Virus record (IMG/VR): IMGVR_UViG_3300031566_000071
Location: 1 to 48,123 of that record
Reading direction: 5' to 3' (one strand)
DNA: 48,123 nucleotides
From: a virus
Positions within the stretch are counted from its first letter, which is position 1. Each line of letters starts with the position of its first letter. Position numbers and translations under genes: made by a program. Below are positions 24,427 through 45,337 of the stretch, one piece after another. Under the pieces are notes generated by a model. That model worked only from the letters and a program-made list of their open reading frames with translations. It was not told the origin of the DNA and ran no database searches.

Positions 24427-24921
24427 GTGATTAAAAAAGTTTTAGTGTTGGTGTTGTTGTTAGCGGTAACGGCAGGAGCCAACGATTTGAGGGCGATATT
24501 CTCGGACAGTATCGTTCCGGCCGATTCGGGGGATGTCCGGGCAGATACCGTATATACGCCAGCGATGGATATAAGTGGGTATAGTTGGTTACAGTTTTAT
24601 ACTCAAATAAAAGCGTATGAGAATCGAAGTGACACCAACTTTACCGATGATAGTTTTTTTGTATATGTCCAGTATTCACCGGACGGTATAATTTTCAACG
24701 CTGGCGACACACTTTGTATTGATACGTTTTTGGCGACCGGGGCGGGTTGGTCATTTCAGAACTTAACACACGATGATGCAATTCTCGGTAATTATATGCG
24801 TGGGATGTTGGTTCACTGGGATTCAATCAAAGTTAGTGAGGCGGATTCGGCACTTGTTAATCGGGGTTCGCCGTTTTACAAAGAAATGATTTTATGGATA
24901 TGTGGAAGTAAGGCAAAGTAA
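24427..24921 (+). CDS. Exported protein within the head cluster
   Basis: 164 residues from GTG 24427 (GGGGGGAAATG upstream). A plain Sec signal peptide (MIKKVLVLVLLLAVTAGA), no lipobox. The mature part is beta-rich with many Asp/Ser/Thr (IPADS-like, YSWLQFYTQIKAYENR), and resembles a single Ig- or discoidin-like sandwich domain. Its position between portal and scaffold is where capsid decoration proteins often lie, yet it seems to be secreted. Role unknown. Confidence 0.65.
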   Translation: MIKKVLVLVLLLAVTAGANDLRAIFSDSIVPADSGDVRADTVYTPAMDISGYSWLQFYTQIKAYENRSDTNFTDDSFFVYVQYSPDGIIFNAGDTLCIDTFLATGAGWSFQNLTHDDAILGNYMRGMLVHWDSIKVSEADSALVNRGSPFYKEMILWICGSKAK

Positions 24922-24953
24922 ATAAACGTTGTTGTAATTATTGATAGGAACTA

Positions 24954-25283
24954 ATGGCAAAGTACAATCTAAAACATGAGATTGCACAGTTATTCGATGA
25001 ACTGCAAATAATCGACGGGTTGAAAGCAACCGTTGACACGCCAGGATGGCGTAGTATTCGCAGTAAGTTAGAAGAAACGATTAAAGGAAATGAACAAGCG
25101 ATACTCTCGTTAAGTGAAAACCCGGTTAAGAATGCTTCCGAGATTGAGAAGCGACACTGGGCGATTGAAATTCAAAGCGGGATTATTGGTTGTGTTGAAG
25201 AGACTCTTACACAGGAGAGTTTCGTATCTGAAAAACTCAAACACCTCATGGAGATAGCTCACAGGGCTGGCCTTGATATTTAA
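24954..25283 (+). CDS. Small helical head-region protein
   Basis: 109 residues from ATG 24954. Entirely helical (HEIAQLFDELQIIDGLKATV, SEIEKRHWAIEIQSGIIGC). Similar small helical genes sit between portal and scaffold in many phages, with unknown function; it might be a scaffold partner. Confidence 0.55.
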   Translation: MAKYNLKHEIAQLFDELQIIDGLKATVDTPGWRSIRSKLEETIKGNEQAILSLSENPVKNASEIEKRHWAIEIQSGIIGCVEETLTQESFVSEKLKHLMEIAHRAGLDI

Positions 25284-25321
25284 GATAACCAGCATGGTGG
25301 GTCTTCAAGAAGGGGGAAACA

Positions 25322-26212
25322 ATGTCAGACGTTGAAAAAGAAGTCTTTGAGGGAGCCGAGGAATCGACAACTCATTCAGAGCAAGAAGTAATGGACGAAG
25401 CCGCAAAGCAGTTGGGTTTCGGTGAGGGAGAGAAACAGCCGGAAGAAGGGTCGCAAGAAGTATTGCCGGAAAATGCGCCCGTCCAAGAGGCGGATAACGC
25501 AGGCGGTGAACAGGTAGCGGAAGAAGAAATCGCTGTGCCCCCGAAAGAGGATAGCACATTCGAGGAACTTATTCAAACCCGCTATCAAAAAGCACTCGAC
25601 CGACTAAAGAAAGTTGACCCTCAGTACGATGTGTGGAAACGCGAACTGCGGGGAAAGACCGACACCTCACTCTCTGACGACGGAGATGATTATATCACCA
25701 ACATGAACAAGAACGAGCTTCAACAACTCGTTAAGCGCACGGTCACCGAGGCTTCAACGGATGCCTATCGGCAAGTGCAGGGTGAAGCTAATTACCACAA
25801 CGAGTTTAAAACGGCAGATAGTGTCATTACTACGTTCATGCAGGAAAACAAAATTCCTAAAGAAGAATTTGATTCCGCATACGATTATGCTGTGGGTTTG
25901 GGTTTAGATGTTGAAAAGCCTGGCGGCCCTTCTGCGATTGCCAAGGTTGTCATCAAGGAGTTTCAAAGGGTTGGCCTGATGAAACATTTCAGTGAAAAAG
26001 TAATCAAGGCACAGGCGGAAGCGGCTGGCAAGGTGAAGGCGGCTAATTTAGTGAAACAACCGGATGCCGCCCCGGTTCCGGGTACTACTTCAACCAACCC
26101 TAACAGTTGGATGGGGAAAGAACCCTCAGAAATGAGCAAAGAAGAACAATTAGCGGCTATGAGAGCCGTCGGCATATCAAAGGCTTCGGAAGATGTGTTT
26201 GGTAAGCCATAA
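25322..26212 (+). CDS. Scaffolding-like protein
   Basis: 296 residues, very acidic first ~90 (EEGSQEVLPENAPVQEADN), then helical stretches (FEELIQTRYQKALDRLKKVD, NELQQLVKRTV) and a basic/flexible C-terminal part with NSWMGKEPSEMSKEEQLAAM. Acidic, extended, helical composition directly before the capsid gene is typical of scaffold proteins, which shape the prohead and then leave. No protease domain is seen. Confidence 0.7.
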   Translation: MSDVEKEVFEGAEESTTHSEQEVMDEAAKQLGFGEGEKQPEEGSQEVLPENAPVQEADNAGGEQVAEEEIAVPPKEDSTFEELIQTRYQKALDRLKKVDPQYDVWKRELRGKTDTSLSDDGDDYITNMNKNELQQLVKRTVTEASTDAYRQVQGEANYHNEFKTADSVITTFMQENKIPKEEFDSAYDYAVGLGLDVEKPGGPSAIAKVVIKEFQRVGLMKHFSEKVIKAQAEAAGKVKAANLVKQPDAAPVPGTTSTNPNSWMGKEPSEMSKEEQLAAMRAVGISKASEDVFGKP

Positions 26213-26247
26213 CGGTTATATGTCGCTGATATAAAGGGGGATTTTAA

Positions 26248-27468
26248 TTGGCTGTTAATATAACTGCGGTAAGAGGGCGCTCTGATTGGTCAACGAATCG
26301 TGAAAAACTCGATTTCGCTGAGGGGATTGCGCTACTCGACCCGAATGAAAACCCGTTTACTCTAATGACCATGAAGTACGGTAGGGGTACTACGGGGAAC
26401 ATAAAACATAGTTGGTTCACGGATGAGTTGATTCCGGAGATAGATACGGTCGATACGACTACGGCGTGTGTCACTGCTGGGGTGACTCTCTGGGTGGACA
26501 ATGGCGACCGTTTCGCGATTGGCGATATTATTATGCGTACTTCCGGTCGTGAGACTTTACTGGTAACGGGGCGTTCGTCTAACGCATTGACGGTTGTTCG
26601 TGATTACGGTGCGACCTCTGGTGCTTATACGGCGTTGGCGAGTTCATTCACGGACGAGGAAGTGATTACCATTATCGGTAATGCTTTTGAAGACGGGTTT
26701 GCGTTGCCGTCGCTTCGGTCAACGACCGAAGTCCAGATGGATAACTGGTGTCAGGTTCAGCGTACTCCGTTTGGTATAGGTGAGATTGCCGCTGCTGCGG
26801 CTACCAGAGGTGAGGATGACTGGGCGTTGCAGATGCGTAAGGCCGGTATTACTCACTCGCGCAAACTTGAATACCAGAATCTTTGGGGACACCCGATGCC
26901 GGGTGATGGTAGTATTTATGCTACTACTAACGATAACCCCTCGTCTGGTGGAGGTCTATGGCACTACTTGACGGGTGGTACTGGTTTTAGTGGTACTGGC
27001 TCTTCTCGGCGTGTTTCACAGGCTGAAATCACCAAGGCTGAGTTCCTTACCTGGATTCAGAATTGTTTTCGGTACGGTTCAGCTCGAAAGGTATGTTACT
27101 GCGCTCCTATTCTACGGTCAGCGATTGATTCGTGGGGTATTGCGGATTTACAGACTTTTTCGACGAGCAAGGTTTACGGTATTGATATTGCCAAGTGGGT
27201 TTCCTCACATGGTACTATCGTATTTGTAACTCACAAGATGCTTGAACAACAGGGGGCCGAAGGCGCAACTAACTTTATGATTGATATGGATGACGTAAAG
27301 TGGTTGACCTATAGCAATTATGGTGATACTCGTCTGCGTATGCTTGAGCCTTACAAGGCTGATGGTTCGACCGTTAAAAAGGCGGAATATCAGACGGTCG
27401 GTTGTTTAGAACTTAAAACGCCGAAGAAGCACGGTGTACTTTACGGTGTGACTTCTTATGCGGCTTAA
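26248..27468 (+). CDS. Major capsid protein (SU10/DUF5309-like)
   Basis: 406 residues from TTG 26248 with AAAGGGGGA upstream. KLDFAEGIALLDPNENPFTLM is the N-terminal pattern of the DUF5309/SU10-like HK97-fold capsid proteins; later GDIIMRTSGRETLLVTGRSSN (a beta insert), RKAGITHSRKLEYQNLWG and VGCLELKTPKKHGVLYGV at the end. TTG start is unusual for the most abundant protein but the ribosome-binding site is strong. An uncleaved N-terminus is suggested by the absence of a separate delta domain. Confidence 0.8.
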   Translation: MAVNITAVRGRSDWSTNREKLDFAEGIALLDPNENPFTLMTMKYGRGTTGNIKHSWFTDELIPEIDTVDTTTACVTAGVTLWVDNGDRFAIGDIIMRTSGRETLLVTGRSSNALTVVRDYGATSGAYTALASSFTDEEVITIIGNAFEDGFALPSLRSTTEVQMDNWCQVQRTPFGIGEIAAAAATRGEDDWALQMRKAGITHSRKLEYQNLWGHPMPGDGSIYATTNDNPSSGGGLWHYLTGGTGFSGTGSSRRVSQAEITKAEFLTWIQNCFRYGSARKVCYCAPILRSAIDSWGIADLQTFSTSKVYGIDIAKWVSSHGTIVFVTHKMLEQQGAEGATNFMIDMDDVKWLTYSNYGDTRLRMLEPYKADGSTVKKAEYQTVGCLELKTPKKHGVLYGVTSYAA

Positions 27469-27478
27469 ACGCTAACGG

Positions 27479-27500
27479 GGGCGGGTACAAAATCCCGCCC
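27479..27500 (+). terminator. Short GC hairpin after the capsid gene
   Basis: GGGCGGG (27479-27485) and CCCGCCC (27494-27500), 7 bp, 8-nt loop, 11 bp after the capsid stop. No T-run follows, so partial termination or 3'-end protection of the capsid mRNA is more likely than full termination. Confidence 0.55.
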
Positions 27501-27519
27501 TCACTAAATTGAGGATACT

Positions 27520-27915: not shown

Positions 27916-27937
27916 CAATCCTCTTGTACTCATAGGT

Positions 27938-29457: not shown

Positions 29458-30120
29458 ATGACTACTCAAGAAGTTGTAAGATTGATTCAAATCGTCCCGG
29501 TAATAAGAGCGATTGAAATGCCTGAAGACGAAAAGAAAGAAGCGATTGGGAATTATATTCCGATTGCCATATCGGAAATATCGGTGAGGAGTGAAGATTT
29601 CGACTTTGCTATTGATGTCGCCGACTATACGGGTGGAAGCGTAGAAGACCAGGCCGATTATGTTTTACGGGGTGAGGGTAAACGTGATTGTCGTCAGATA
29701 ATCAATATTCGGTATGGTGACGATTATTCGTTGCTTGATAAAATGCGGCAGGTTGATGTGGACGAGTGGCTTAATAATCGTTCTCATACTTCGACGACTA
29801 TATGGGTGCCGCATGGTTTGGTTGACGAATATCCGAGAGTGAAACTGGTTGCGACTCCGGCTGTTGATGATGAGAATATCCGTTATCGTTACTTTAAAAA
29901 AAACATTACGGTTGAGAACTTTCCCGAATCGTTTATTTATGTTGTCGTGTCAGGGGTGGTTAAACGGTTAGTACCCGCCTATGGGGTAGTATTCAACAAT
30001 GACCTTGAAACTATGATTAACAATTACACAACAACTGGTGGTGCGGACAACCCGGCCAAGCGAGACCCCGAAACGGTAAGACGTAATAATTCTCGATACG
30101 GTAAGAACGGATGGTCATAA
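29458..30120 (+). CDS. Head-tail adaptor-like protein
   Basis: 220 residues from ATG 29458 (GGGGGAC upstream). N-terminal helices (VVRLIQIVPVIRAIEM), then mixed alpha/beta with YTGGSVEDQADYVLRGEGKR, and a long C-terminal segment ending PETVRRNNSRYGKNGWS. Size, position after capsid and before the neck proteins suggest an adaptor ring below the portal. No specific family recognised. Confidence 0.5.
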   Translation: MTTQEVVRLIQIVPVIRAIEMPEDEKKEAIGNYIPIAISEISVRSEDFDFAIDVADYTGGSVEDQADYVLRGEGKRDCRQIINIRYGDDYSLLDKMRQVDVDEWLNNRSHTSTTIWVPHGLVDEYPRVKLVATPAVDDENIRYRYFKKNITVENFPESFIYVVVSGVVKRLVPAYGVVFNNDLETMINNYTTTGGADNPAKRDPETVRRNNSRYGKNGWS

Positions 30121-30770
30121 TGAAAAAGTATATTATACCATTTCTTATTTTACTTTTCTCGGTATCTGCCTCGGCTCAGATTTCACCGCGGTTGGACAGT
30201 ATTGCTATCCGGTCGTTATGGCAGATAAATGTCTCCATAACCTATACGGATTTACTGACATCGGCAAAGGTATATAACGCCGTTAATTTAGCGAATTATC
30301 AAGTCTGTGTTGACTACCCGGCTATTCCGAAGTTCGACACAACCTATATAGATTCGACAATGGAGGGCGGGGCGCTTAACACTGATTTTCTGAGGGCTGG
30401 TAATTGTTTTATAATTTATGGTGACACGGCGCGCGTTCCCCTGATACCGATAATGGCGGATTCATTACAAGAGATAAAACCTACAATAGAAGCGAATATA
30501 CGAACTGTCGGCGACTATACGGGAGAAAGCTATTTCGTTATTCACGACACGACATTTTCAATATTTCCGAAGTGGCGTATGGGTTACGATTCTCTGAAGA
30601 TTTTCGTCAACTATTACGCTATGGATACGGTGTTGACGGCGGCGGCTTCGGCCACATCTATTCGACCGGAGTATAGGCAGAGGGTAATTGATTATACCTG
30701 TAAGATACTTGAAGAAATCAGAGGCAATTACGGTAGGGCAGACTATTGGCAGAAACAATATGGGAAATAA
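30120..30770 (+). CDS. Neck-region protein with signal peptide
   Basis: 216 residues from ATG 30120, which overlaps the previous stop; 30111 is an in-frame alternative. Clear Sec signal peptide (MKKYIIPFLILLFSVSASA, then Q). The body is beta-rich (YTDLLTSAKVYNAVNLANYQ, GDYTGESYFVIHDTTFSIFP), with a helical C-terminus (EYRQRVIDYTCKILEEIRGN). By gene order this is where a second adaptor or tail-completion protein belongs, yet the signal is unmistakable. Confidence 0.65.
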   Translation: MKKYIIPFLILLFSVSASAQISPRLDSIAIRSLWQINVSITYTDLLTSAKVYNAVNLANYQVCVDYPAIPKFDTTYIDSTMEGGALNTDFLRAGNCFIIYGDTARVPLIPIMADSLQEIKPTIEANIRTVGDYTGESYFVIHDTTFSIFPKWRMGYDSLKIFVNYYAMDTVLTAAASATSIRPEYRQRVIDYTCKILEEIRGNYGRADYWQKQYGK

Positions 30771-31059
30771 TCATCGGGTGGATACCCGTAACAATCTTTA
30801 TAGCGGCGGTACTTTATTTAATATGGCGAATGTTAAAAAATTTGTAATGGCGACTATTCTATTTTTAATTTTCTGTTTTGTGGGGAATACGTTGTACGGG
30901 ATATGTGCCTACCATAAGGCTTCTCGCAGTCTTGAATTGTCTGCGTTTTATCGAGGTCTTGCTGTTGATTATTATGAAGTTGGAGATTCAACCTTTAATT
31001 ATTACTGGGCTTTAGCGGATTCTCATTATGTTATATATAAAGAATTTTATGATGATTAA
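30760..31059 (+). CDS. Single-span membrane protein
   Basis: 99 residues from ATG 30760, or 78 from ATG 30823. One hydrophobic span (FVMATILFLIFCFVGNTLYG) followed by YHKASRSLELSAFYRGLAVD and an acidic C-terminus. Overlaps both neighbours. It may be a membrane partner of the exported neck proteins on either side. Confidence 0.5.
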   Translation: MGNNHRVDTRNNLYSGGTLFNMANVKKFVMATILFLIFCFVGNTLYGICAYHKASRSLELSAFYRGLAVDYYEVGDSTFNYYWALADSHYVIYKEFYDD

Positions 31060-33913
31060 ATATTTATTCATATTAGTGTTCCTGCCGGTACTGGCTTTCG
31101 GCCAGTCCGACACAGATAAGATTGACGACTTTTCGCTGGGGTTAATGACGGCCATGCCGACAATAAAGGTTCCTCTCGGCGGGGCGGTTGTATGTCAAAA
31201 TCTCGATTTAAGCGATGGCATATTGGAGGTGCGGCCTGGCTATGATTCGGTGTTCGGCTTTAAGGGTATGGACTCGATAATCGGGTTGGGGACACTGTAT
31301 AAACATGACGGTACGCAGTATATATTTGCCGTGGCTGATTCGTTGGCGGTGGGGTATGGCGGGATATACGCCTCGACTGAGGGGTCGCACGAGTTCGGGT
31401 CAACGACGGATTCGTTTTATATTGTTCCAGACACGACGGGTTACGGGGAGTGCACCGGGAAAACGGCTCTTATTAAATATTACGGATTAAGCGTTGATGT
31501 CGCGGGACATTTAAGTACGACGATTTACTCCGACACGACGTATTGTGATACTTGTGAGAACGGCAACACCGTTCCGAATGATGAGAGGACGATTGCCCGG
31601 ATATGTAGCACAATGGTTGCTCGGCTGAACGCCTCTGCGGTGGCGAGTTATTTTACTATGACTGACCACGATTCAGCTTTTTCGATGAAAGAGAAGGCGT
31701 CTTATAATTCGTCTATCAGTTACGAAACGTCAATGCCGCCATGTTATTATTATTGTTTAAACGGGTTTAGTATAACGCAGACGGAACTATCTTCCGAGAA
31801 CGCCCCGAATCGTATCTGGCCTTATTTTTCAATCCAGAGTAAGCCCCGATTTGCGCAGTTCAATGACCAGTTGTATATCGTTAATAGCGACCAGCGAGGG
31901 GTCGTTATTGACGATGCACACAACGGCTTTATAGCGCAGTCGTATCCATTACCGGCTCCGGGTGAACCGCTTATTGTGCCGCTAAAGGATACCGGGACTT
32001 CATTAGATTCTACGCTGGACGGTGAGTACAGGTATGCAATTAGACATGCTCGATGGATAGGTACGGACACAATACAGGGATTCGGGCCAATAGGTCGAGT
32101 GTCTGCACCTGTTAAAGTTAAAGACGGTCAGGTTATGTTGCGTAAGTTTCAACTACCGCCATCAGATACGGGGGGGGTTCGTCATATTTTGACGACTGAC
32201 GACACGGTTGAATTTGCGGTCTGGCGGTCAAAGGCTAATCCGGGTCGGCTAACGGCGTCGTCATATTTGTTCGATACGGGTCTGCGGCTAAAGATAGACT
32301 CATTGGGGTCGCTTGGCGATTCAATTATTTATGATAAGATTTGTGATGACAGCCTCTCGGCAGACAGTGTTCTGGCCGTCACCGATAGTCTTTATGGCCG
32401 GGACTCGACGAATGCTTTGTCACGCAGGTACGGCGCGCCGACGTTTATAAGTTGCGATACAATTACGGATACGGCGATTGCCAATTTGCATATTATGCAC
32501 GGCTGGCCCTCACAAGCCAAGAATCTCGGCGTTGTTTATTATGTCGCTTTCCACGATACCATTACGGGCAATCAGGGGCCGTTAAGTGAGGGATTGGCGG
32601 TTTATAACGCAAAAGGTACGTCTTATAATCTCGATACGGTAGTTATTGGATTGCCCCAAATACCGGATGGTGATAGTGGAATAACTCTTGATATTTATCG
32701 GGGGCAGATTTATCAGGTGGGTAGGGATACTGGGGGCTATTATAAAATTAACCCTAATTATCCCTGGAGTCGTATGTTAAGAACATTTATAGATTCTGGG
32801 TATGCGGTTGATTCTATTATAGTGCTTCCCCCGAAACTTTTAGCCCAATTATCGTCTTCCGATAGTATCTACGTAGATTCGGTGCGTCAGGACTCGCTCG
32901 ATTTATGTAAGACTTATACCGGCGTTGAACCACCATCAGTATTAGCAAATATTTTCCCTTACGACAACTATATGTTCGGATATAAGGGTAGTCAGCTCTG
33001 GCGGTCGGATTTGGATTCAGCGTATAAGTGGGGTGTGTGGAATATCACCGAAGTAAATAGGGACGATGGCGACCAGATAACACTGGTTTATCCCGGTCGT
33101 ACCGCTATGCGGATATTTAAGTTTTTCTCTAATTACAATATCTGGGACGGATACACCAAACCGGAGATTGTCGGACGCTGGGGGTGTATTGCACCCTTTA
33201 GTTACGTGCCGGGGGCACTCAATTATTATCTGTCGTCGGGGGGGATAGTCGGTGAAACTGACGGGAAACAACTTGAGCGCACCGTCAGTCAGGGGCTTAT
33301 ATCAAAACAGTTAAATAACTTCGACGACCTTTCAATGGCGACTCAATACGGCATGGTCGGTCAGTACCTGCCGACCGAGCAGATGGCCCTGTTCTGTCTC
33401 GGCGACACGACTTATGCTTACTTTGAAAAGACGGGTTCCTGGGCGACCTGGGACTTTACGTTTGGCGGCGGGTGTTTGTACGATGTCGAGGACGAGTTGG
33501 ATTTTATGCCCGGTAAAACATTCTATTTCTTTAGGGCGGGCGACTCGACGATTTATACCTACGGGACAGGAAATACTGACAACGGCGACTCGATACGGGT
33601 TGAATGGAAATCGGGGGCTATTTATCCCGACAGGTGGAAAAAACAAGTACAAGATATAGGGCTGTGGGTAGAGAGCACCAACGGCGATGATTCGCTGATT
33701 TTGGTTTATGTGTTAGACGACGGGGGGGACACGCTTTCTACCACAGCCTTTAGTGATTTGAACGATGCCCGGTATCACCTCAAGGAAGTAGCGACTGCCG
33801 AGCCGGGTCAATATTTCCAGATATACATCGTCAGCGACAAGTCTTTGGCAGACACGAGAATTAACGGCATAGATTATAAGTATATGAGGGCAGAGGGGAA
33901 ACAGGCGAAATAG
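31052..33913 (+). CDS. Tail hub/nozzle-like protein with signal peptide
   Basis: About 953 residues from ATG 31052. Signal peptide MIKYLFILVFLPVLAFG, then Q. The mature start DKIDDFSLGLMTAMPTIKVP, CQNLDLSDGILEVRPGYDSV follows the pattern of phage proteins beginning with F-GL-t, N-dl--G-L--RPGY that form a beta-propeller ring on short tails or necks (tail nozzle/stabilisation proteins). The rest is repetitive beta structure. Its position before the internal virion proteins and spike fits. Export of such a protein is unusual and unexplained. Confidence 0.6.
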   Translation: MIKYLFILVFLPVLAFGQSDTDKIDDFSLGLMTAMPTIKVPLGGAVVCQNLDLSDGILEVRPGYDSVFGFKGMDSIIGLGTLYKHDGTQYIFAVADSLAVGYGGIYASTEGSHEFGSTTDSFYIVPDTTGYGECTGKTALIKYYGLSVDVAGHLSTTIYSDTTYCDTCENGNTVPNDERTIARICSTMVARLNASAVASYFTMTDHDSAFSMKEKASYNSSISYETSMPPCYYYCLNGFSITQTELSSENAPNRIWPYFSIQSKPRFAQFNDQLYIVNSDQRGVVIDDAHNGFIAQSYPLPAPGEPLIVPLKDTGTSLDSTLDGEYRYAIRHARWIGTDTIQGFGPIGRVSAPVKVKDGQVMLRKFQLPPSDTGGVRHILTTDDTVEFAVWRSKANPGRLTASSYLFDTGLRLKIDSLGSLGDSIIYDKICDDSLSADSVLAVTDSLYGRDSTNALSRRYGAPTFISCDTITDTAIANLHIMHGWPSQAKNLGVVYYVAFHDTITGNQGPLSEGLAVYNAKGTSYNLDTVVIGLPQIPDGDSGITLDIYRGQIYQVGRDTGGYYKINPNYPWSRMLRTFIDSGYAVDSIIVLPPKLLAQLSSSDSIYVDSVRQDSLDLCKTYTGVEPPSVLANIFPYDNYMFGYKGSQLWRSDLDSAYKWGVWNITEVNRDDGDQITLVYPGRTAMRIFKFFSNYNIWDGYTKPEIVGRWGCIAPFSYVPGALNYYLSSGGIVGETDGKQLERTVSQGLISKQLNNFDDLSMATQYGMVGQYLPTEQMALFCLGDTTYAYFEKTGSWATWDFTFGGGCLYDVEDELDFMPGKTFYFFRAGDSTIYTYGTGNTDNGDSIRVEWKSGAIYPDRWKKQVQDIGLWVESTNGDDSLILVYVLDDGGDTLSTTAFSDLNDARYHLKEVATAEPGQYFQIYIVSDKSLADTRINGIDYKYMRAEGKQAK

Positions 33914-33921: not shown

Positions 33922-34461
33922 ATGGACGAGATGGCAGAATTTGCCCAGTGGCTTAAACAAAAATATGGGATTGACTATCCGAGTCCGCAACTGGGCGCAG
34001 GGCAAGGTTTCAGTGGACAAGGCGGTGGTGGTCGTGCGAGTGCCGGTGGTACGGTAGGTGGAATTGGTGCGGGGGTTATGCCATTTAATCCCTGGATTGG
34101 TGGTGGGATGATGGCGGGGGGATTCTTGCTTGATGCGCTCCGTGGCGACCCTATGGCGAAGTACCGCAAGCAGGGAATGAAAACCGCACAGGAAATGGTA
34201 ACCACTAACCCCGACGTTATTAACGTCGGTGGGGCGATTGGGCGCAACCGGGCGGCTATGATTCCTCGATTGGGAGAAATGGGGGAGCAGTTTAATAAGC
34301 GATTTGGCCTCGATACCGGGACGGGGCAATATGCCAATCTGCAGGCGTTGCTCGAAAAAGAGGGGATGTTTAACCTCAACGCCTCGATGGAAAACGACAG
34401 GTTGAAGGCTCGGCAGAAGCAGTATTATACCGGGATGCTTGCCGGGGCGGGGAGGCGATAA
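33922..34461 (+). CDS. Internal virion/ejection-like protein 1
   Basis: 179 residues from ATG 33922. Glycine-rich middle (GQGFSGQGGGGRASAGGTVG, then GGIGAGVMPFNPWIGGGMMA) with a possible membrane-inserting segment, followed by helices. Small glycine-rich proteins with a hydrophobic patch followed by larger helical ones are typical of the ejection set of short-tailed phages. No catalytic motif. Confidence 0.55.
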   Translation: MDEMAEFAQWLKQKYGIDYPSPQLGAGQGFSGQGGGGRASAGGTVGGIGAGVMPFNPWIGGGMMAGGFLLDALRGDPMAKYRKQGMKTAQEMVTTNPDVINVGGAIGRNRAAMIPRLGEMGEQFNKRFGLDTGTGQYANLQALLEKEGMFNLNASMENDRLKARQKQYYTGMLAGAGRR

Positions 34462-35294
34462 TGCCAGACTATACCGACAGAGATAAACCCGGACTGGGCG
34501 CACTGAGCGATATTTTTAAGTCTGCCGCTAATATGTACACGCACATTCTCCCCGAGTATAGGCAGAAGTATGCTGAGTTTCAGGAAGAGAAGCGCAAGGC
34601 CGCACAGGGGCAGTCTAACTGGGAATCACAGCAAGGGGCGACGGCGGATTATCGGGGTTCGATGCTTGATATAGACCGGGGTAGATTAGCGGAGATGATT
34701 CGTAGTAATAAAGTAGGGGAAACGCCGAAACCTACCGAGGAAAAACCGCTTACCGAAAGCCAGGTTAAGGCGGGGTTACTTGCGGGAATGCCACCTGGAA
34801 AACAAGAACAGTATATGTTTGGTTCCGGAAAGGAGTCTAAGCCAGACGCAAGTATAGTTAGGGCGTTGTTGGATTTATGGAAAAGTCAGAGATATGTCCC
34901 AGAAGAACAGGGGGTTGACGCTAACGAGAAGCCATTTTTGAAAGAGGGGTATTATCCTCCCGTTGCTGGTGTGGCGGGTGATACTGCTAATTATATAACT
35001 CAAACAGGTCAATGGCCGTCACAACCGTTAGGTGGCATATCCGAAATGCATACACAACATAATCAGTATTTAGCAGACAAGGCCAGTGGTGGGAATCAGG
35101 TTAAATCGAGGATACCCTTCTTACAACCGGGTGTTCTTGGCGGTGCGCCGCAACAGGGAGGTACACAACGGACAGCACCGCAGTCTATGGTTGCCCCGGA
35201 GGTCGATACGTGGGGGCTGGAAAACTATTCGGAAGTCGATTGGCAGAAACTCGACGACACAACTAAAACCGCATTGTATTATAAATATAAGTAG
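34461..35294 (+). CDS. Internal virion/ejection-like protein 2
   Basis: 277 residues, ATG 34461 overlapping the previous stop (TAATG). N-terminal helices (LSDIFKSAANMYTHILPEYR, KYAEFQEEKRKAAQGQSNWE) and a long low-complexity Gln/Pro/Gly part. Matches the second ejection protein in gene order. Function by context only. Confidence 0.55.
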   Translation: MPDYTDRDKPGLGALSDIFKSAANMYTHILPEYRQKYAEFQEEKRKAAQGQSNWESQQGATADYRGSMLDIDRGRLAEMIRSNKVGETPKPTEEKPLTESQVKAGLLAGMPPGKQEQYMFGSGKESKPDASIVRALLDLWKSQRYVPEEQGVDANEKPFLKEGYYPPVAGVAGDTANYITQTGQWPSQPLGGISEMHTQHNQYLADKASGGNQVKSRIPFLQPGVLGGAPQQGGTQRTAPQSMVAPEVDTWGLENYSEVDWQKLDDTTKTALYYKYK

Positions 35295-35297
35295 GTT

Positions 35298-38200: not shown

Positions 38201-39395
38201 TTCTCTCTTAACTTCCAAGGGTCGGTCGCAAGCAAGACAGACCGGGATGTTACGGGAATCCATGATTGACGCTTTTGCCGGTCGGGAACCAAAGGGCTTT
38301 ATGGGTAAGGTTGCCCGCAAAACCCTTACGGCGACCGGCTTTATGGGTATCAACAAATTTAACTTATACCTTGCGGCTTCGTCGTTTAGACACGCCGTTA
38401 AGGGGTGGCACAAAGCCGCACAGAATAATACGATACATGGACGTTGGGCGAGAAAGCGGCTTGGCGACCTCAATCTTAAACACACAGACAAGCTGAACGA
38501 AAACTTGATAAGAGAGAAGGCTTACAGGTTTGCAGTGGATTCACAGTTACAGCGTAACGTCCTTAAAGACCCTATTGTATTTAACGACCCAGTATGGCGT
38601 CCCCTCTTTTTGTTCAAGCGGTTTGGTTACAGGCAGGCAACATATATCAAGGATATGCTTTGGCGGGAAACCATACATCGGGGCAACCCAATGCCGCTTT
38701 TAAGATTAGTAGCGGGTGGTATTCTCGGCGGCGAGTTTGTGATATGGGCGAAGAACCAAATTAAAGAACAGCTTACGGGTGAACCGTATTATCGCAAAGA
38801 CGATAAGGATATGTTTAAGCGGATATGCAACGACCTTGCCGCCGTTGGTTCTTTTGGTATGGTATCTGATATGATGGAGATTGAAAACCTGAGTGGTCTT
38901 TGGAGCAAGGCTAAGTTTTTGGCTGGCCCCGTATTCGTATCGGATGCAGAAAAGGCGTTTGAGGCATTAACTACCGTTACTAAAGAATGGGAAAAATACG
39001 GTGACGCATGGTTGGTAACAAAGCGGAACGCTAATAGGTTGGTTGGATTCTTCGGTTCCTTGCCTCGATACGCCAGCAAGCGGATGCAGACAGCACCACA
39101 AAAGAAAAATAGATTAGAGTATTTTAGGGGCAGGGAACGCACAGATATTCTTGACTTGATGCTTAACGGTAGGGGGACAGAGGCATCGAGGCGCATACAA
39201 CTTTGGAATCAACACCACAAGGGCGAAGCCTTGACCGCCGACGACATAAATTCAGATGAATTATATAAGCGGGCGGTGTCAAGGGCAGAAACGCTTGCTA
39301 AGGCAAAGGGAACATATATACCGAAATCGACATCCGACAATCAGGGGCCGAAAGCCCCATCACCACCAAGCGCGCCGAAAGGGCCAGGGAGATAA
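35298..39395 (+). CDS. Giant internal virion protein with ADP-ribosyltransferase domain
   Basis: 1365 residues. Residues ~16-56 hold three copies of KRS-L-(D/Q)-DDLAG-(I/L). An ADP-ribosyltransferase-like domain of the type found in phage polyvalent proteins spans ~325-475: KAYHGTEKEFDKFDY, LGRGFYFDSDKPIAEFYAKR, GYDAIEFNKEFTVFDVKSI. The remainder is helical (SEKGR-type linkers, FLFKRFGYRQATYIKDMLWR) as in large ejected core proteins. Such proteins enter the cell with the DNA and may modify host targets at once. ATG 35298; ATG 35319 is a possible alternative. A separate small gene is nested at 36097-36231. Confidence 0.7.
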   Translation: MQELSYMSGEQPLFRQKRSLDDDLAGIGKKRKRSLQDDLAGISGKRSLQDDLAGLNAAVPATPPDILGGTLPSDATNVVKPYNRSEELLSNLPGEQVPERPWSDAFMPGILPKGTTENVDRAITNIKPSLFGQQEIPENLSAQEKGRRTMHNIGVKGTKFAPGLLLGALENPIGTAGAVASFLPELAQRLGKAGGVNLKETLLNPTGAPGMPFIPQQTTEQEQKAAQQETLENMFDVILAASPLLGKVKGLRKTGETISKQKTGVKYDKESQGRLSGSERVGQEPRRPIPDKGTGGEAAERSRVLQTQKEVTPSPVKAKESWEMTKAYHGTEKEFDKFDYSKIGRETDEGTLGRGFYFDSDKPIAEFYAKRADRNNKGGVVLTKYLDVKNPFVVRDKSLYKNNAGLWKTETLIENLRNKYPQDKLKNYTWDEALQWLDSEVGSINSEITNFLKGKGYDAIEFNKEFTVFDVKSIVSQKEHKKLVRQAISEGKPVPAEVLKDYPDLAAKYGTVQNVGTSEQVATKPPKPVTSAPQSKQIIRSTEMPPEGISSKQINKKVYDKRTQSQLPDNKLSKNEQFVNETDFVGKDLQIVPKSGTVEPKKGTKPLSLEESQKKISKQHKFGEPTTLSFMGVNPTVAKQLGGNVVKGIEAVGGKITPPLLKQAQNRVKLPESKQLFKEIERADELWHRQSGQSIERLRRLKLQKLSDKEAIKLADEIENPKTHNEYNKALDVLYYKAKAKGVKMGYIGKGGKRYFPRVWKEDALNKVFDDLEPLLKKLDEGSFSDRAVGEAIKQKSQITQKLINHLIETKQAKSYTHALKKLQKEAAKEIFPESSFEKGRTLDLPSDIYERNAKKVLPQYVDNITKRIAQIEIWGEHGKGAQDILSKIREKDFAEGETAGKVLDMWSGQYEMHKGLRGTARKVVDAYMGFESTTKIGLGTATIPNITQSTISSIPDLGAWNTVKGGFSLLTSKGRSQARQTGMLRESMIDAFAGREPKGFMGKVARKTLTATGFMGINKFNLYLAASSFRHAVKGWHKAAQNNTIHGRWARKRLGDLNLKHTDKLNENLIREKAYRFAVDSQLQRNVLKDPIVFNDPVWRPLFLFKRFGYRQATYIKDMLWRETIHRGNPMPLLRLVAGGILGGEFVIWAKNQIKEQLTGEPYYRKDDKDMFKRICNDLAAVGSFGMVSDMMEIENLSGLWSKAKFLAGPVFVSDAEKAFEALTTVTKEWEKYGDAWLVTKRNANRLVGFFGSLPRYASKRMQTAPQKKNRLEYFRGRERTDILDLMLNGRGTEASRRIQLWNQHHKGEALTADDINSDELYKRAVSRAETLAKAKGTYIPKSTSDNQGPKAPSPPSAPKGPGR
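36097..36231 (+). CDS. Nested out-of-frame gene, conserved small phage protein
   Basis: 44 residues, ATG 36097 with CAGGAG 6 bases upstream. It reads MIRKVKGGYRVVSESGKNLG, then GPYPTKEQAEKRLREVEYFK and a Lys tail, a pattern I recognise from free-standing small phage proteins (K-GGY-V-S--GKNLGGPY-T--EAEKRL-QVE-FKH). It lies wholly inside the giant virion gene in the +1 frame, where the host frame encodes only a Gly/Glu-rich linker just before the ADP-ribosyltransferase domain. Most likely a real overprinted or inserted gene. Confidence 0.65.
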   Translation: MIRKVKGGYRVVSESGKNLGGPYPTKEQAEKRLREVEYFKHKKK

Positions 39396-39396
39396 G

Positions 39397-39663
39397 ATGA
39401 CGGATAGTTATGCGGGGAAAACAGACAGAGATTTGATAGTCGAAATGCACACCAATATCAATACAATGTTGGTGGGGCAAAAGATACAAAACGGGAAGTT
39501 GGCAGAACACGAACAATATATTATCCAGCATAAGCAAACGCATGAAGACCTTCCGGGGCAAATAACGTGGAATGTGATTAGGAAAATCGGGGGAATATCC
39601 GTTGCGCTGACAGGGGTTGTCGGGCTTGTTTATGGGATATTAAAAATGGTACACATATTTTAG
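39397..39663 (+). CDS. Holin-like small membrane protein (XhlA-like layout)
   Basis: 88 residues from ATG 39397. Charged helical part (LIVEMHTNINTMLVGQKIQN, EHEQYIIQHKQTHEDLP), then one C-terminal membrane span (GISVALTGVVGLVYGILKMV). This is the layout of XhlA-like lysis proteins: coiled-coil, then one span. It could equally be a tail-base protein. An in-frame extension to 39256 would overlap the giant gene and is not supported. Confidence 0.5.
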   Translation: MTDSYAGKTDRDLIVEMHTNINTMLVGQKIQNGKLAEHEQYIIQHKQTHEDLPGQITWNVIRKIGGISVALTGVVGLVYGILKMVHIF

Positions 39664-39671: not shown

Positions 39672-41357
39672 ATGGCGAAGAAAAAGCGGGGCGCCATCGA
39701 GGCGATACCACGAAGTCATTGGTTGTGGATAATAATTGACTTGGCGTTATTCTTCATACTGGTTTTCGGCGGCCCAATGAAGGCGTTCGGCGCGACCTAC
39801 TACGTAATGGATTCCGTCACTTTTCCGCAAGCCTCAGACGGTAACAACGGGGAAACGTGGGGACAACCCTTCGCTACTATTAGTCGCCTTCAAAACGCTA
39901 TGGTTGGTGGTGATACCGCTTTTATGCACGGTACATGGGAAGACGTGCAACTTGTTCCACCTTCGGGGGCTTCGTTTGGCGACAGAACGGCGTATATATC
40001 AGCCAACGGGAAGACGACAACGCCGACTATCGGTGACGCTCATATCTACGGCGGTAAGTTAGCAACAGGATGGACAAACATAAGTGGCAATATTTATAGG
40101 TGTCAATTTACTCAAGTTGGCGGGGAAGAACCCTATTCAACTTTTACTGACGTGACCGTATCTGGTTGCTGGCAGGATACAACAGTCCTTACTGGCATTT
40201 CAAGTTATGGAGATTTAAGCGAGGGCGAATATTACTGGACAGATGCCGGTGATGATAGTTTGTATGTATATCTTAACGATATTGGGGGGGTAGGCTACGA
40301 CCCTGCAAACTATACTATCTACGCCACTCATAAAATACCTATTCAGATGGCATACCACGATAATTTAGACTACGTTACTTTTTATGGCTTAGACGTTCGG
40401 TATGGTGGGCGGAAAGGAATCATGTTTGGCGGTAGTTATCACCACGATTCGGTATTCATCGACCATTGTATTATACGTTATGTTTCGGGCGGGGGGGCTA
40501 ACAATATAGCCTCCGTGTCGTCGATGAGTAATAATTCTTCTGACATCTCAACTTATGGTCATTATAATAGGATAAGAGCCTGCTCTTTATCCAATGTCTG
40601 GAATCATACGTCTAACAACATGGAGGGGACGGTACTATATTGCGAGATGTATATAACCACCGAAAGTTGCTACGTTTATACTCTGGAATCGGGAGTAAAC
40701 AACAAGGGTGCTCCCGTACAAAGAACGGGAGATGTTACGAAGTTTAATACGATTGTTAATTGTGAATACGGTATTGCCCGCGATGGGGCGGTAGATATTG
40801 ATAGTGTGTACGGCAACATTGTAGTGTCAAATCGGGATAATGCGAGGGGTTATGTCAACGATTTTCATCCGGGTACTTATGGGATGATATACATTTACAA
40901 TAACACCTTTCACCTCAAGTCATCTACCGGGGACGGTATAGTTTTCGGGGCTACCGATGGTTACAATAATACTTTTCCTGACTCGAACTATGTTAAGTAT
41001 AACATTATTTATTCGGCTAACGGTGATGAGGCATATATAGATAAGTATGACGACAGCGTGTTGTTGTCGGATTCTAATATATTCTATACGAGTTGGAGTT
41101 TTAGAAATTCGTTGGGTTCGGGTGATACTGCTTGGTGGGAAGCACAGGGATATGATACCCATAGCGATTTTAATGTTGCGCCCAGTTTTGTAGATACGTC
41201 GTCGGCCGTGATGAACTACGCCCGCACAGATTCTTTGAGTGCCGATATGAACTTAACCTATGGCGGCAAGACGTGGACGAAGTACGGGGCAATCCAACCA
41301 AGCGGCAGTGCGCCGCCGGAACCGGGGACAAGATATAAAATAAGGATGAAAAAATGA
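39672..41357 (+). CDS. Right-handed beta-helix tailspike-like protein with signal sequence
   Basis: 561 residues. Basic start, then one hydrophobic stretch (HWLWIIIDLALFFILVFGG, AFGA cleavage-like site). From about residue 40, rungs of parallel beta-helix: GNNGETWGQPFATISRLQNA, then DYVTFYGLDVRYGGRKGIMF, IDHCIIRYVSGGGANNIASV, GIARDGAVDIDSVYGNIVVS. This pectate-lyase-like fold is typical of tailspikes that bind or cut surface polysaccharide. C-terminus is RYKIRMKK, basic. 4-bp overlap with the next gene. Confidence 0.7.
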   Translation: MAKKKRGAIEAIPRSHWLWIIIDLALFFILVFGGPMKAFGATYYVMDSVTFPQASDGNNGETWGQPFATISRLQNAMVGGDTAFMHGTWEDVQLVPPSGASFGDRTAYISANGKTTTPTIGDAHIYGGKLATGWTNISGNIYRCQFTQVGGEEPYSTFTDVTVSGCWQDTTVLTGISSYGDLSEGEYYWTDAGDDSLYVYLNDIGGVGYDPANYTIYATHKIPIQMAYHDNLDYVTFYGLDVRYGGRKGIMFGGSYHHDSVFIDHCIIRYVSGGGANNIASVSSMSNNSSDISTYGHYNRIRACSLSNVWNHTSNNMEGTVLYCEMYITTESCYVYTLESGVNNKGAPVQRTGDVTKFNTIVNCEYGIARDGAVDIDSVYGNIVVSNRDNARGYVNDFHPGTYGMIYIYNNTFHLKSSTGDGIVFGATDGYNNTFPDSNYVKYNIIYSANGDEAYIDKYDDSVLLSDSNIFYTSWSFRNSLGSGDTAWWEAQGYDTHSDFNVAPSFVDTSSAVMNYARTDSLSADMNLTYGGKTWTKYGAIQPSGSAPPEPGTRYKIRMKK

Positions 41358-42004
41358 GGGGCTATTTAATATTATTGATGGTGGTATTGCTTTGCGGGAC
41401 GGCACACGCCGACTCTTGGTACGACACCGTGAACGCTTCGGCGGACGATGTTCATTGGGATATTGACGCAACACCCGACACTACGATGTATTTAACGGCG
41501 GCGGCCATTTATCTCAGTCCATCAAGTGTAAAGGCGGGGAGTGGTGCCGCTTTTCGCTTCTTAACCTGTCCCATACCAGCCGGGGCAACTATTACTATTT
41601 GTTCCTGCGGTTTTCAATCCAATGTCGCCGGGACAACCGAGGGTATTCTGACAATATTTAGTTTTGAGGATACCGCCGATGCAGCGACGTTCAGCGATAA
41701 GGCCGACCTGGGTGCTCGACACTGGACTACGGCCGTTGATACTGCCGCAATACCCACCTTTGCGGCCAATACTCGATATTGGGTTATTGTGGACAATGCT
41801 GTATTTCAGGAAGTTATAGACCGGGCGGACTGGGAGGAAGGTAACGATATTGCGTATAGGACTGTCAGGGGAGTGGAGTCTGCTGGTCAGGCAAAAACTT
41901 TAGCGTGGGACTATACACAAGATTACTGTGCGGAGTTACGAGTTTATTTTACGACGGGGGGGGCACCCGCCGCGACGCGCAGGAGAGTAATGCTTTTAAA
42001 ATAA
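41354..42004 (+). CDS. Exported beta-sandwich protein
   Basis: 216 residues. Signal peptide MRGYLILLMVVLLCGTAHA. The body (DDVHWDIDATPDTTMYLTAA, GTTEGILTIFSFEDTADAAT, WVIVDNAVFQEVIDRADWEE) resembles a single jelly-roll/carbohydrate-binding-like sandwich. It ends AATRRRVMLLK, a basic tag similar to the spike's. Likely a receptor-binding or spike accessory protein. No known family assigned. Confidence 0.6.
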   Translation: MRGYLILLMVVLLCGTAHADSWYDTVNASADDVHWDIDATPDTTMYLTAAAIYLSPSSVKAGSGAAFRFLTCPIPAGATITICSCGFQSNVAGTTEGILTIFSFEDTADAATFSDKADLGARHWTTAVDTAAIPTFAANTRYWVIVDNAVFQEVIDRADWEEGNDIAYRTVRGVESAGQAKTLAWDYTQDYCAELRVYFTTGGAPAATRRRVMLLK

Positions 42005-42019
42005 CTTTTAGGGGGACAA

Positions 42020-45000
42020 ATGAAAAAGTGGGGCTTGATATTTTTGGCGGTGGTGTGTCTGCTACCGTTCAGTTCGTTTAGTTACGGCATAGTAAATAAC
42101 GCGGGAGATTTACCGGCGGATAGTATATCTATACCGTTCTACGCCATAGATTCGGCGGGTAACGTCGTTGATATGGCGGCCAACGACTCGGTGTTTATCG
42201 CTATCTTTTATCCGAGCGGGGCGTTGGCTTACTGTGATACTCTGGCGTATAACGGGGCAAAGATAACAGCCGTAGTATTTTCCGGTGGAACATATTATAG
42301 CTGGAAAGAAGCGGTTGCAGACATCGACGGCACACCAGTAAACGGTGCGTATAGTTATATTTTAACCGTTGAGGATAATACTGACGCCGCCTTGCGTACA
42401 CCCCACAAAGGACACTTCCAGCTCTACACCGGGCACGACTTCGATGATTTGTACGATACCCTCTATGCGGGATATGATTCGTTGTTGCTGGTGCAGGACT
42501 CGGTTAACGGGATTATAGACACCCTGCAATCCGATAGTCTTGAAGTAAATGTTAAATATGTTGACCACAGTGCCACGGCGGCGCAAAGACTCAGCGACGT
42601 ATTCGACGGTACGGGTGCGCCTGTGACCTTTGGACAGGTAACGATAACTGGCGCAGATACCGGAATGGTTATTACGGGAACGGGTGCGGCCCCCGCTATC
42701 TATATTGAGGGCGGAGCAACAGGAAGCGGCTTTGAGATTTTTGGCGGTGGTACTTCCGGTGACGCTATGGTATTGACGGCGACTAATGGCGATGGTTTAG
42801 TAGCAACTGGAGCCGGGGCTGGCAACTACGATATTCTGGCCGACATAGCCGGGTCGGTGGATACGATAACTAAAGATGTCTCGGTCGGTAGTGCAGAAAT
42901 GGTTTTAATCTCCGATACAATTCTGTCTCGATGGATAGATTCGATTGCGAAAGGATACCTTGTTATTAAAGATACCAATATAACGGGAGAAACTCTTGCC
43001 GTTATGCCAAGTGAATGGGTTGCCGCAGATTCGGCTGGTTATCAAGGTTCGGCGGCGGGTCTTGATTCAGCAGCGGTTTACGGTGCGATGGCGCAGTGTG
43101 TAAGCGACTCATTGGCGACACTGGATACGCTCGGTTATTTAACCTGGGCGAACATAGATACATCGGCGATTGATTCGTCTGACATTATAGCTTGGTTCTT
43201 AAACAACGGCGGGTCGGATTCGACCACCGTTAATAAAGCCTGTACTGACGCCGTTAGTGGCGTGGCAGAGGAAGTCATGGACAGTCTGTTGGCCTTAGTC
43301 GAGGGCGATACGGTTACGGGTACGATAATGGCCGAGATAGTCAAAGCCAGCGATACGAGTTTATGGGCGCAACCGAAAGATATGTGGGTTGCCATAGACA
43401 CAACGACTACCGTGGATACTTCCAAGTTAGGAAAGTGGTTTATAAACAACGTCGGTGCCGGGGCTTCGGATACGGCGAATATTCTGGCCGCCTTAGTAAG
43501 GGCTGGCCTAATTCTTTATAGTAACTCCGACAGCGTATTACAACTTCGGGGACTACACATACTTGGTACGGAAGACGGCGACACGGCCTTTTATGCTCGT
43601 GCTTATCAAAGCGGAACCGGGATGGGATTTCTGGCGCAGGGCGGTAATTCGACCTCGCCCGGCATGAAGGTTGTCGGTGGCGCTGCTGGTGGCTATGGTT
43701 TTGATTTGCGTGGTGGTGGCGGTAATGCGTCAGCCCTATATGCGGCTCCGGCTGGAAGTGGAAGTGGTTTTCGTCTTACTGGTAGTACAAGTGGAAACGG
43801 TTTAATGGTGATTGGCGGTACATCTTCTGGTGTTGCGGCATACTTTGCTTCACTAACAGGTCAAAATTCAATTAGTACAACTTCTGGCGTACAAATAGGC
43901 GGTAGTTTTAGTGTGGGTTCCGATTTTAGGGTGGCTGACAGTTTTGTGGTCGGTGACGATATTGTTTGCGACTCGCTTCACGGTATAATTACCGGCGTCG
44001 ATTCTGTGCGCAACTCCATAGTCGCCAGAGACACGACTTCGGCAGGTGACAGCCTTGCCGTTATGCCTAACGATTGGCTGGCGGCCGACTCGGCTGGTTA
44101 TCAGGGTAGTGCGGCCTCGGTAACTCTCGCGGGGATATACGACACTATCGGTCAACTCTTAGACGATACCCTATCCGATATTGCGGTGGTGCCGTCTGAT
44201 ACTAATGCTCTCGGTGACACTCTGGCAGTTAAAAAAGATTCTTCTATTTATCAGGGTGCGGCTAATAGTTTAACCGCTACAATGTGCGCCGATTCGGTAG
44301 CGGCGATGATGAACGACTCGGCTTTTGCCCGTGTTGATTCTACGCAAGGATGGAAAATAACAAGACTTGAAACTGATACTATAGAGGCTAATATTAAAGG
44401 TAATATTGTCGGGTCACTTTCGGGGACGGTAACGGCTAATATGTCGCAAATTTCCGGCGACGCTACGGCAGCCAACAACCTTGAAGCCGCACTTGACGGA
44501 ACGGGTGGCATAACCCTATCGCTTGGTCATCTGAGTATTTCTGGAACGAACGGCAATTCGGGGTCGGCCTATATTTTCAACTCTGACGGCCCCGGTATGG
44601 TTGTTGTCGGTCAAGGCGACACTGACTTTGTAGGTAACATTACGGGAGCTATCGACACAGTCAGAAACGCCGGGAGCGGCACCACGGATACGACAACCAT
44701 GAAAGCTATGGCGACAAACAACCCTGGTCTCTTCTACGGGCCGACCGCGACTGGCTCTGGTATCTACACACATTACATCAAGGTTATCGACACCTCTGAC
44801 AATACTACACCGGATTCCGTACTGGCCTATATTCTTTTATCGGTTGACAATGCTTCGGGTTCAAATGTCGGTAGTGGTAAGTCTGATGCTCTCGGTTACG
44901 AGACCTTCTCGCTTGACTCCGGTTCTTACACATTCAAGTTCTTTCACCCGGAATATCAGGCTGACGAAGTAACCGATACGGTGACGGCCAGTGGTGATAC

Positions 45001-45337
45001 GACAGTAATCAGGGCTTATGATACTCATACGACTAATACGTGTCGGGTCTGGGGCTACATAATCAACCCAAGTGGTGATAGTTTAAACTTAGCATACGTT
45101 AGATTTGAAGTTCCAACAGTGAATAGAGCTTCAGACAGCGCTATTATTCTGTCGGGTCAGATAGTAGAAGCCAGAACAAACACCAATGGATATTTTTCTA
45201 AGGACTTAATAGTATCCAGCCTTCTCAACGACCAAGAATACAAAGTGACGATAGGGTGTTATGGTTATAGCGATAAGATAACCTCAATAACCGTTCCCGA
45301 CAGCACCACGTATAAGTTACACTTTGGGCTGGAATAA
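42020..45337 (+). CDS. Large fibre/adhesin-like protein with signal peptide
   Basis: 1105 residues. Signal peptide MKKWGLIFLAVVCLLPFSS. An N-terminal Ig-like part (DSISIPFYAIDSAGNVVDMA) is followed by repeats of a block around LAVMPSEWVAADSAGYQGSA (near residue 335 and again near 680, and a shorter form later), and glycine-rich collagen- or spring-like stretches (GTGAAPAIYIEGGATGSG, GGAAGGYGFDLRGGGG). The C-terminal ~180 residues contain YILLSVDNASGSNVGSGKSD and SGDSLNLAYVRFEVPTV, carboxypeptidase-regulatory-like sandwiches. Probably the host-binding fibre; Ala/Asp/Ser-rich style matches FCB-group surface proteins. Confidence 0.6.
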   Translation: MKKWGLIFLAVVCLLPFSSFSYGIVNNAGDLPADSISIPFYAIDSAGNVVDMAANDSVFIAIFYPSGALAYCDTLAYNGAKITAVVFSGGTYYSWKEAVADIDGTPVNGAYSYILTVEDNTDAALRTPHKGHFQLYTGHDFDDLYDTLYAGYDSLLLVQDSVNGIIDTLQSDSLEVNVKYVDHSATAAQRLSDVFDGTGAPVTFGQVTITGADTGMVITGTGAAPAIYIEGGATGSGFEIFGGGTSGDAMVLTATNGDGLVATGAGAGNYDILADIAGSVDTITKDVSVGSAEMVLISDTILSRWIDSIAKGYLVIKDTNITGETLAVMPSEWVAADSAGYQGSAAGLDSAAVYGAMAQCVSDSLATLDTLGYLTWANIDTSAIDSSDIIAWFLNNGGSDSTTVNKACTDAVSGVAEEVMDSLLALVEGDTVTGTIMAEIVKASDTSLWAQPKDMWVAIDTTTTVDTSKLGKWFINNVGAGASDTANILAALVRAGLILYSNSDSVLQLRGLHILGTEDGDTAFYARAYQSGTGMGFLAQGGNSTSPGMKVVGGAAGGYGFDLRGGGGNASALYAAPAGSGSGFRLTGSTSGNGLMVIGGTSSGVAAYFASLTGQNSISTTSGVQIGGSFSVGSDFRVADSFVVGDDIVCDSLHGIITGVDSVRNSIVARDTTSAGDSLAVMPNDWLAADSAGYQGSAASVTLAGIYDTIGQLLDDTLSDIAVVPSDTNALGDTLAVKKDSSIYQGAANSLTATMCADSVAAMMNDSAFARVDSTQGWKITRLETDTIEANIKGNIVGSLSGTVTANMSQISGDATAANNLEAALDGTGGITLSLGHLSISGTNGNSGSAYIFNSDGPGMVVVGQGDTDFVGNITGAIDTVRNAGSGTTDTTTMKAMATNNPGLFYGPTATGSGIYTHYIKVIDTSDNTTPDSVLAYILLSVDNASGSNVGSGKSDALGYETFSLDSGSYTFKFFHPEYQADEVTDTVTASGDTTVIRAYDTHTTNTCRVWGYIINPSGDSLNLAYVRFEVPTVNRASDSAIILSGQIVEARTNTNGYFSKDLIVSSLLNDQEYKVTIGCYGYSDKITSITVPDSTTYKLHFGLE

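Follow-up and report, generated by a model that had tools for sequence, protein, structure and literature searches.

The viral DNA in IMG/VR record IMGVR_UViG_3300031566_000071 is 48,123 bases long, and the window analyzed here is the whole of that record. Its late region follows the order typical of short-tailed phages: terminase, portal, a protein at the scaffold position, capsid, a proximal adaptor, the products of the genes starting at 30120 and 31052, three ejection-type proteins, fibers, and a lysis block (Table 1; proteins are named by the start position of their genes). The standard teaching is that tailed-phage virions are put together entirely in the cytosol. As a sequence-only reading of this DNA had claimed, six proteins of the virion gene cluster nevertheless begin with signal peptides (SPs): 24427, 30120, 31052, 39672, 41354, and 42020. 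The evidence considered here suggests that these proteins are exported, that they are probably glycosylated outside the cytosol, and that they are tail parts of the virion.

SPs were called with a rule set written for this analysis, which includes a strict cleavage rule, and the N-termini of all nine proteins named in the sequence-only reading were also read. Textbook n-, h-, and c-regions with an AxA-type site (a slash marks the predicted cleavage) are found in 207 (FVAA/Q), 24427 (TAGA/ND), 30120 (SASA/Q), 31052 (AFG/Q), and 41354 (AHA/D). The start of 42020 is SP-like (KKWGLIFLAVVCLLPFSSFSYG), with a weak cleavage motif that fails the strict rule. That of 39672, which the rule also misses, has a long basic n-region and a core interrupted by one Asp, followed by KAFGA/TYY. 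Strong ribosome sites lie upstream of 24427, 39672, and 42020. By the same rule, the background rate is 24 SPs among 1,185 proteins in loci outside the clade described below. The last two named proteins, 46372 and 46701, are indeed of the exported type (lipobox VCTGC/S), but they are not anomalous: they occupy the spanin position, where export is expected. In nearly all mature SP-protein chains, no second hydrophobic anchor stands out. Dual-start cytosolic isoforms were rejected, because among internal starts that would yield an SP-less isoform, none was both consistent and preceded by a ribosome site. A need for disulfide bonds is also rejected as the main reason for export, as Cys is not notably enriched in SP proteins (0.76% versus 0.48%) and the nozzle alignment has no conserved Cys pair.

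What are 30120 and 31052? The comparison set consisted of 80 loci with related capsid genes. Those examined encode, in order, the capsid, a small protein, an adaptor (~190 aa), and a stabilization or nozzle protein (~500 aa), and their adaptor and nozzle genes lack SPs. Six members of each window family were aligned with the first 24 residues, and hence the SP, removed. In hhalign comparisons, the 30120 family matches 11 SP-less adaptors (probability 95.2, E 2.6e-8), and the 31052 family matches the SP-less nozzles over ~230 columns (probability 96.6, E 5e-10). For the proximal adaptor family, the match to the adaptors is weak (E 0.001), and there is none to the 30120 family. The six-member alignments were decisive, whereas single-sequence comparisons of the window proteins were suggestive. 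Orthologs of 30120 match PHROG tail and virion structural families; a PDB sequence-profile search gave no useful match. Because the SP-stripped families match SP-less adaptors and nozzles, the SP appears to have been added ahead of a complete domain rather than lying inside one, which answers the concern that the hydrophobic starts might be buried in folded domains. Fold identity rests on profile comparison, and by that measure 30120 and 31052 are genuine virion connectors, in the neck and tail positions where the sequence-only reading had placed them.

The same signals are present in related phages. Relatives were gathered through portal and nozzle alignments (L090, L091, L097, L099, L100, and L102), giving seven phages including the window. 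Their nozzles are 33%–44% identical, and the nozzle ortholog carries an SP in all six relatives. Across the seven phages, all 14 distal adaptor and nozzle genes have SP-like starts, and in 13 the call is strict or a lipobox. For example, such proteins begin MKKYIIPFLILLFSVSASA/QISPRLDS in the window, MRTIRTIVSVVLSLLLLPVLAVG/QTSPRLDS in L091, and MKRLILIAVLLVFAASVSA/ADFMDS in L099. The h-regions have diverged in sequence, and the cleavage zone is conserved, with A, G, or C before Q, A, E, or N. Orthologs of 24427 keep the SP (L007, MKKWLLWMSIPLLMVQSVTA/ND; L091, MKSKLLIAVLLVLPALIAA/SD), and fiber genes, where recovered, also have one (L093, L099, L111, and L114), including a 555-aa protein in L093 that is similar to 39672. 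The partition between head and tail is clean. In the seven phages, a strict SP call was made for 28 of 33 distal tail and fiber proteins, the other five being SP-like by eye. For terminases, portals, scaffolds, capsids, proximal adaptors, and ejection proteins combined, the count is 0 of 64 (p = 1.3e-19, Fisher test). The proximal adaptor, 29458, is probably the boundary component on the cytosolic side. Together, the seven form a group of short-tailed phages that has not been described before.

A second line of evidence comes from a glycosylation sequon. The motif D-[ST]-[AILVMT] is the sequon of general O-glycosylation in Bacteroidota, which acts only on noncytoplasmic proteins, and its frequency in such proteins is above chance mainly in Bacteroidota and, similarly, in Fibrobacterota (PMC12871550). 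In the mature SP proteins there are 498 sequons, versus 109 +/- 10 in 1,000 composition-preserving shuffles (4.5-fold, z = 40). Before [ST]-hydrophobic, enrichment is seen for D alone (4.05-fold; E, 0.55). After the site, L is favored most (2.7-fold), C ranks after it, I, A, and V are at ~1.9-fold and T at 1.6-fold, while P, Q, R, Y, and W are at 0.03- to 0.09-fold. After Asp, Ser is favored over Thr, even though Thr is the more frequent of the two overall. No enrichment is seen for the reversed dipeptide [ST]D (220 versus 240 expected). These residue preferences, read from sequence, match those measured in the Bacteroidota glycoproteome (PMC12871550).

The controls lie at or near expectation: 53 observed versus 57 expected for non-SP proteins of the same phages, 21 versus 22 for SP-less homologous nozzles, 11 versus 6 for SP-less adaptors, 1,150 versus 1,158 for all proteins of other loci, 26 versus 27 for SP proteins of other loci, and 113 versus 124 for structural proteins of five isolated Bacteroidota phages. 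Hence neither the fold nor possession of an SP yields the signal by itself. Among ~1,350 proteins scanned, 17 are significant, all in the clade; 16 have an SP (strict or SP-like) and one has a lipobox. The spanin-like lipoprotein 46701 has 9 sequons versus 1.1 expected, and it provides independent support because its location in the periplasm is expected on other grounds. The counts support the sequon as a second, independent predicted signature of periplasmic residence, carried by the SP proteins and absent from the cytosolic ones. The sequon, together with Gln at position +1 of the cleavage sites, suggests a host in Bacteroidota (or perhaps Fibrobacterota).

Table 1. Features of the window (sequon counts are observed versus expected; TM, transmembrane segment; ORF, open reading frame)
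Feature	Coordinates	Strand	Basis or remark
Outer-membrane-barrel-like protein with SP	207..707	+	Aligned homologs L094, L110, L111
Portal, without SP, cytosolic module	22533..24413	+	phrog_332 E 8e-9
Small beta-type SP protein between portal and scaffold, decoration-like	24427..24921	+	MIKKVLVLVLLLAVTAGA/ND
Scaffold-position protein, without SP	25322..26212	+	Position; L007 homolog
Major capsid protein, without SP	26248..27468	+	phrog_1328 E 1e-22
Adaptor 1 (proximal, head-completion position), without SP	29458..30120	+	Kept SP-less in relatives
Distal head-tail adaptor (P22 gp4/T7 gp11 type) with N-terminal SP	30120..30770	+	hhalign; 8 sequons versus 0.9
Small ORF with hydrophobic N-terminus, between adaptor and nozzle	30823..31059	+	Start uncertain, weak ribosome site
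Tail nozzle/stabilization protein (P22 gp10/T7 gp12 position) with N-terminal SP	31052..33913	+	hhalign; 29 sequons versus 5.0
Three ejection/internal-virion-type proteins (33922, 34461, 35298), without SP	33922..39395	+	
88-aa protein with C-terminal TM, holin-like	39397..39663	+	Small TM proteins at same place in relatives
Tail spike/fiber-like protein, SP with long n-region	39672..41357	+	Beta-helix-like by inspection
Fiber-associated SP protein	41354..42004	+	Residues 65-199 resemble tail-region proteins in L053 and L030
Large fiber SP protein	42020..45337	+	CarboxypepD_reg-like repeats at C-terminus; 43 sequons versus 8.6
Endolysin, without SP	45337..45786	+	phrog_465 E 3.5e-17
Two overlapping lipobox genes (46372, 46701), spanin position	46372..47468	+	46701 sequon-rich
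Small protein with two hydrophobic segments, holin-like	47483..47836	+	Similar small genes in relatives

How might such a virion be put together? In the cytosol, the terminase, portal, scaffold, capsid, proximal adaptor 29458, and ejection proteins would build, fill, and seal the head. The six SP proteins of the virion cluster would be made as preproteins, exported by host Sec, and cleaved by signal peptidase. In the periplasm, most of their D-[ST]-hydrophobic sites would be O-glycosylated by the general system of the host, and the folded, glycosylated distal adaptor, nozzle, spikes, fibers, and 24427-type protein would accumulate there. The boundary between compartments would separate proximal adaptor 29458 from distal adaptor 30120, because the SP partition falls there. 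Since the endolysin has no SP, a holin would be required to open the inner membrane, and canonical holin lesions are big enough to let a phage head through. DNA-filled heads would then meet the periplasmic tail parts, with head-tail joining occurring at lysis.

Assembly or maturation of part of the virion beyond the inner membrane, which the sequence-only reading had raised, is the best-supported reading, given the adaptor and nozzle homology, the conserved SPs, and the sequon. Its components differ in strength. Sec export of the tail module is well supported by the predicted SPs, and its glycosylation is likely from the sequon; we infer that the SPs are cleaved and that the sites carry glycans, and likewise the identity of the host and when and where head and tail join. 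Overall, it is probable that the window belongs to a podovirus of a Bacteroidota-type host with two-compartment virion assembly, comprising export, O-glycosylation, and joining at lysis. We lean, a little less firmly, toward a whole lineage of tailed phages with sealed cytosolic heads and exported, glycosylated tails that are joined as the inner membrane opens, such that completion of the virion is coupled to lysis.

Several points weigh against periplasmic tail assembly. Mechanistically, export is an awkward route for a protein whose task includes binding the portal complex, and no gene was found that obviously couples heads to periplasmic tails. The sequons would record evolutionary exposure to the glycosylation machinery rather than occupancy on virions. 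AlphaFold2 models of the 30120 and 31052 families, made from three-sequence alignments, had predicted local distance difference test (pLDDT) values of 43 and 29, too low to use. Among cultured phages in the phage collection, there were only remote matches to the portal, capsid, and terminase, and a host search of bacterial genome contigs with the nozzle and terminase alignments found no relative.

Other explanations can account for parts of the pattern. Export may be real while the enrichment of D-[ST]-hydrophobic reflects some other property of the secreted proteins of the host group, such as composition, metal-binding turns, or resistance to proteolysis. Indeed, the sequon is short, and its residues D, S, and T are common. 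The enrichment nonetheless survives composition-preserving shuffling, is specific for direction and for Asp, agrees with the third-residue and Ser/Thr preferences already established, and does not occur in homologs of the same fold; moreover, the published survey finds such enrichment mainly in Bacteroidota and Fibrobacterota (PMC12871550). This explanation is unlikely. Slightly less likely still is that the hydrophobic starts are anchors on the cytoplasmic side, tethering tail parts to the inner face of the membrane as an assembly platform, with no translocation or cleavage. A short anchor and a cleavable SP look alike, and membrane-tethered assembly would account for a link to lysis. However, the cleavage motifs are recurrent, and the sequon signature is confined to SP proteins and the periplasmic spanin-like lipoprotein, such glycosylation being noncytoplasmic.

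The sequence-only reading had also allowed that the SP proteins decorate the cell surface instead of the virion. In that case, they would be exported and glycosylated but remain on the infected cell (on its surface or in its outer membrane), where they might, for instance, block superinfection. Phage-exported proteins that block superinfection are common, and this phage encodes the clade-conserved, outer-membrane-barrel-like SP protein 207. We consider this improbable, somewhat more so than the anchor explanation: SP-less relatives with the same gene order have homologs of 30120 and 31052 as their virion adaptor and nozzle, and the spikes and fibers show the same SP pattern. Furthermore, no adaptor or nozzle copy lacking an SP was found in the window, so a podovirus of such a type would be tailless. 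Finally, an artefact of wrong start codons or buried hydrophobic segments is very improbable; spurious SP-like reads do arise from certain naive ORF starts, as for the terminase (TTG 19632), but the SP form is kept at the same genes in seven phages, in SP-less relatives the homologous domains start beyond the SP, and the ribosome sites at 24427, 39672, and 42020 are strong.

How does periplasmic tail assembly compare with known systems? We cannot match this mode of tail building to any known kind. The gene order is that of P22/T7-type podoviruses, with their usual succession of terminase, portal, scaffold, capsid, and ejection proteins, and the adaptor and nozzle have profile homology to a tail of that type (gp4/gp11 adaptor, gp10/gp12 nozzle, spikes or fibers). 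Known tails of that type are assembled in the cytosol from proteins that lack SPs, whereas here an SP is found on the distal adaptor and everything beyond it. Bacteroidota general O-glycosylation has the same sequon and residue preferences and the same confinement to noncytoplasmic proteins, but its known substrates are host proteins, and PMC12871550 mentions no phage. The coat proteins of filamentous phages, such as M13 G3p, are Sec/YidC-dependent (PMC8310372), and they resemble the present case in being virion proteins with signal sequences that are handled by host Sec. Unlike filamentous phages, which are extruded through the envelope without lysis and have membrane-embedded coats, this is a tailed double-stranded DNA phage with an endolysin and a predicted soluble, exported tail module. 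The filamentous-type traits (single-stranded DNA, extrusion, no lysis or terminase) do not describe the window, which has portal, capsid, and endolysin families and a terminase with matches in other phages. Capsid glycosyltransferases have been suggested in mycobacteriophages (e.g., PMC11256854). Phage-encoded glycosylation of this kind also yields glycosylated virion proteins, as predicted here, but by phage enzymes, whereas host periplasmic glycosylation would act in the present case. The crAss-like and other isolated Bacteroidota phages examined (crAss001, phi14:2, phi38:1, B40-8, and 11b) probably infect the same host group, and crAss001 and phi14:2 have a P22-like adaptor and nozzle; the structural proteins tested in these five phages have neither SPs nor sequon enrichment. 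Searches of full-text literature, covering few subscription journals, found no account of a tailed phage whose tail proteins are exported by Sec or glycosylated in the periplasm.

What would follow if the tail were built in the periplasm? First, head-tail joining would be a lysis-coupled event. Second, tail proteins could use periplasmic folding and host glycosylation. Third, virions would bear O-glycans from whichever host strain they last grew in, with possible effects on adsorption, immune or mucus interactions, and host range. Fourth, the combination of an SP with D-[ST]-hydrophobic sites would be a sequence signature that flags such phages in metagenomes and hints at the host phylum. The observation now extends from one genome to a clade and is joined by a second line of evidence, the sequon; neither the glycosylation signature nor the sharp split between head and tail was part of the earlier reading.

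Several neighboring features deserve mention. The fiber SP proteins 39672 and 41354 and those of L093 and L099 have similar short, basic or hydrophobic C-termini (RYKIRMKK, TRRRVMLLK, GQVIRVRSY, and GQVIIIQ), possibly a sorting or attachment tag. Additional SP-bearing proteins adjoin the capsid or portal gene in two relatives (L090:14234-15382 and L091:12366-12884). The one in L090 has 20 sequons versus 3.7 expected, which suggests that head decoration may likewise be added outside the cytosol. No homolog of the small ORF between adaptor and nozzle was found within the clade. A glycosyltransferase-like gene (27938-28573; phrog_1574, E 2e-28), followed by a gene for a polytopic membrane protein (28566-29450), separates the capsid gene region from the proximal adaptor. 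Homologs of the glycosyltransferase-like gene occur at eight places among the SP-less capsid-relative loci, and tblastn gave no match in the clade members examined. A phage-encoded glycosyltransferase was rejected as the cause of the trait, as 27938 is not conserved alongside the SPs.

In the lysis block, 46701 has a weak PHROG spanin match (E 0.006), and 46372 and 46701 are ordinary lysis lipoproteins. The 88-aa holin-like protein has no Pfam match. Protein 207 has no sequons and may have a role in lysis or superinfection exclusion; its homologs (L094, on the reverse strand; L110:2299-2772; L111:6993-7496) lie beside small holin-like genes. The third ejection-type protein (35298-39395; 1,365 aa) contains an ADP-ribosyltransferase ART-PolyVal domain (Pfam E 6e-15) and probably enters the cell together with the DNA. 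The longest terminase ORF (19632-21218) starts at a TTG from which the last part of the preceding gene is read in the wrong frame, producing an apparent SP. This SP was rejected as the product of an off-frame start: homology to L090 begins near an ATG at 19683, probably the real terminase start. Finally, the protein encoded at 4994-5698 has a long repeat tail rich in Ala, AAAAAQGTEAAAAAAY.

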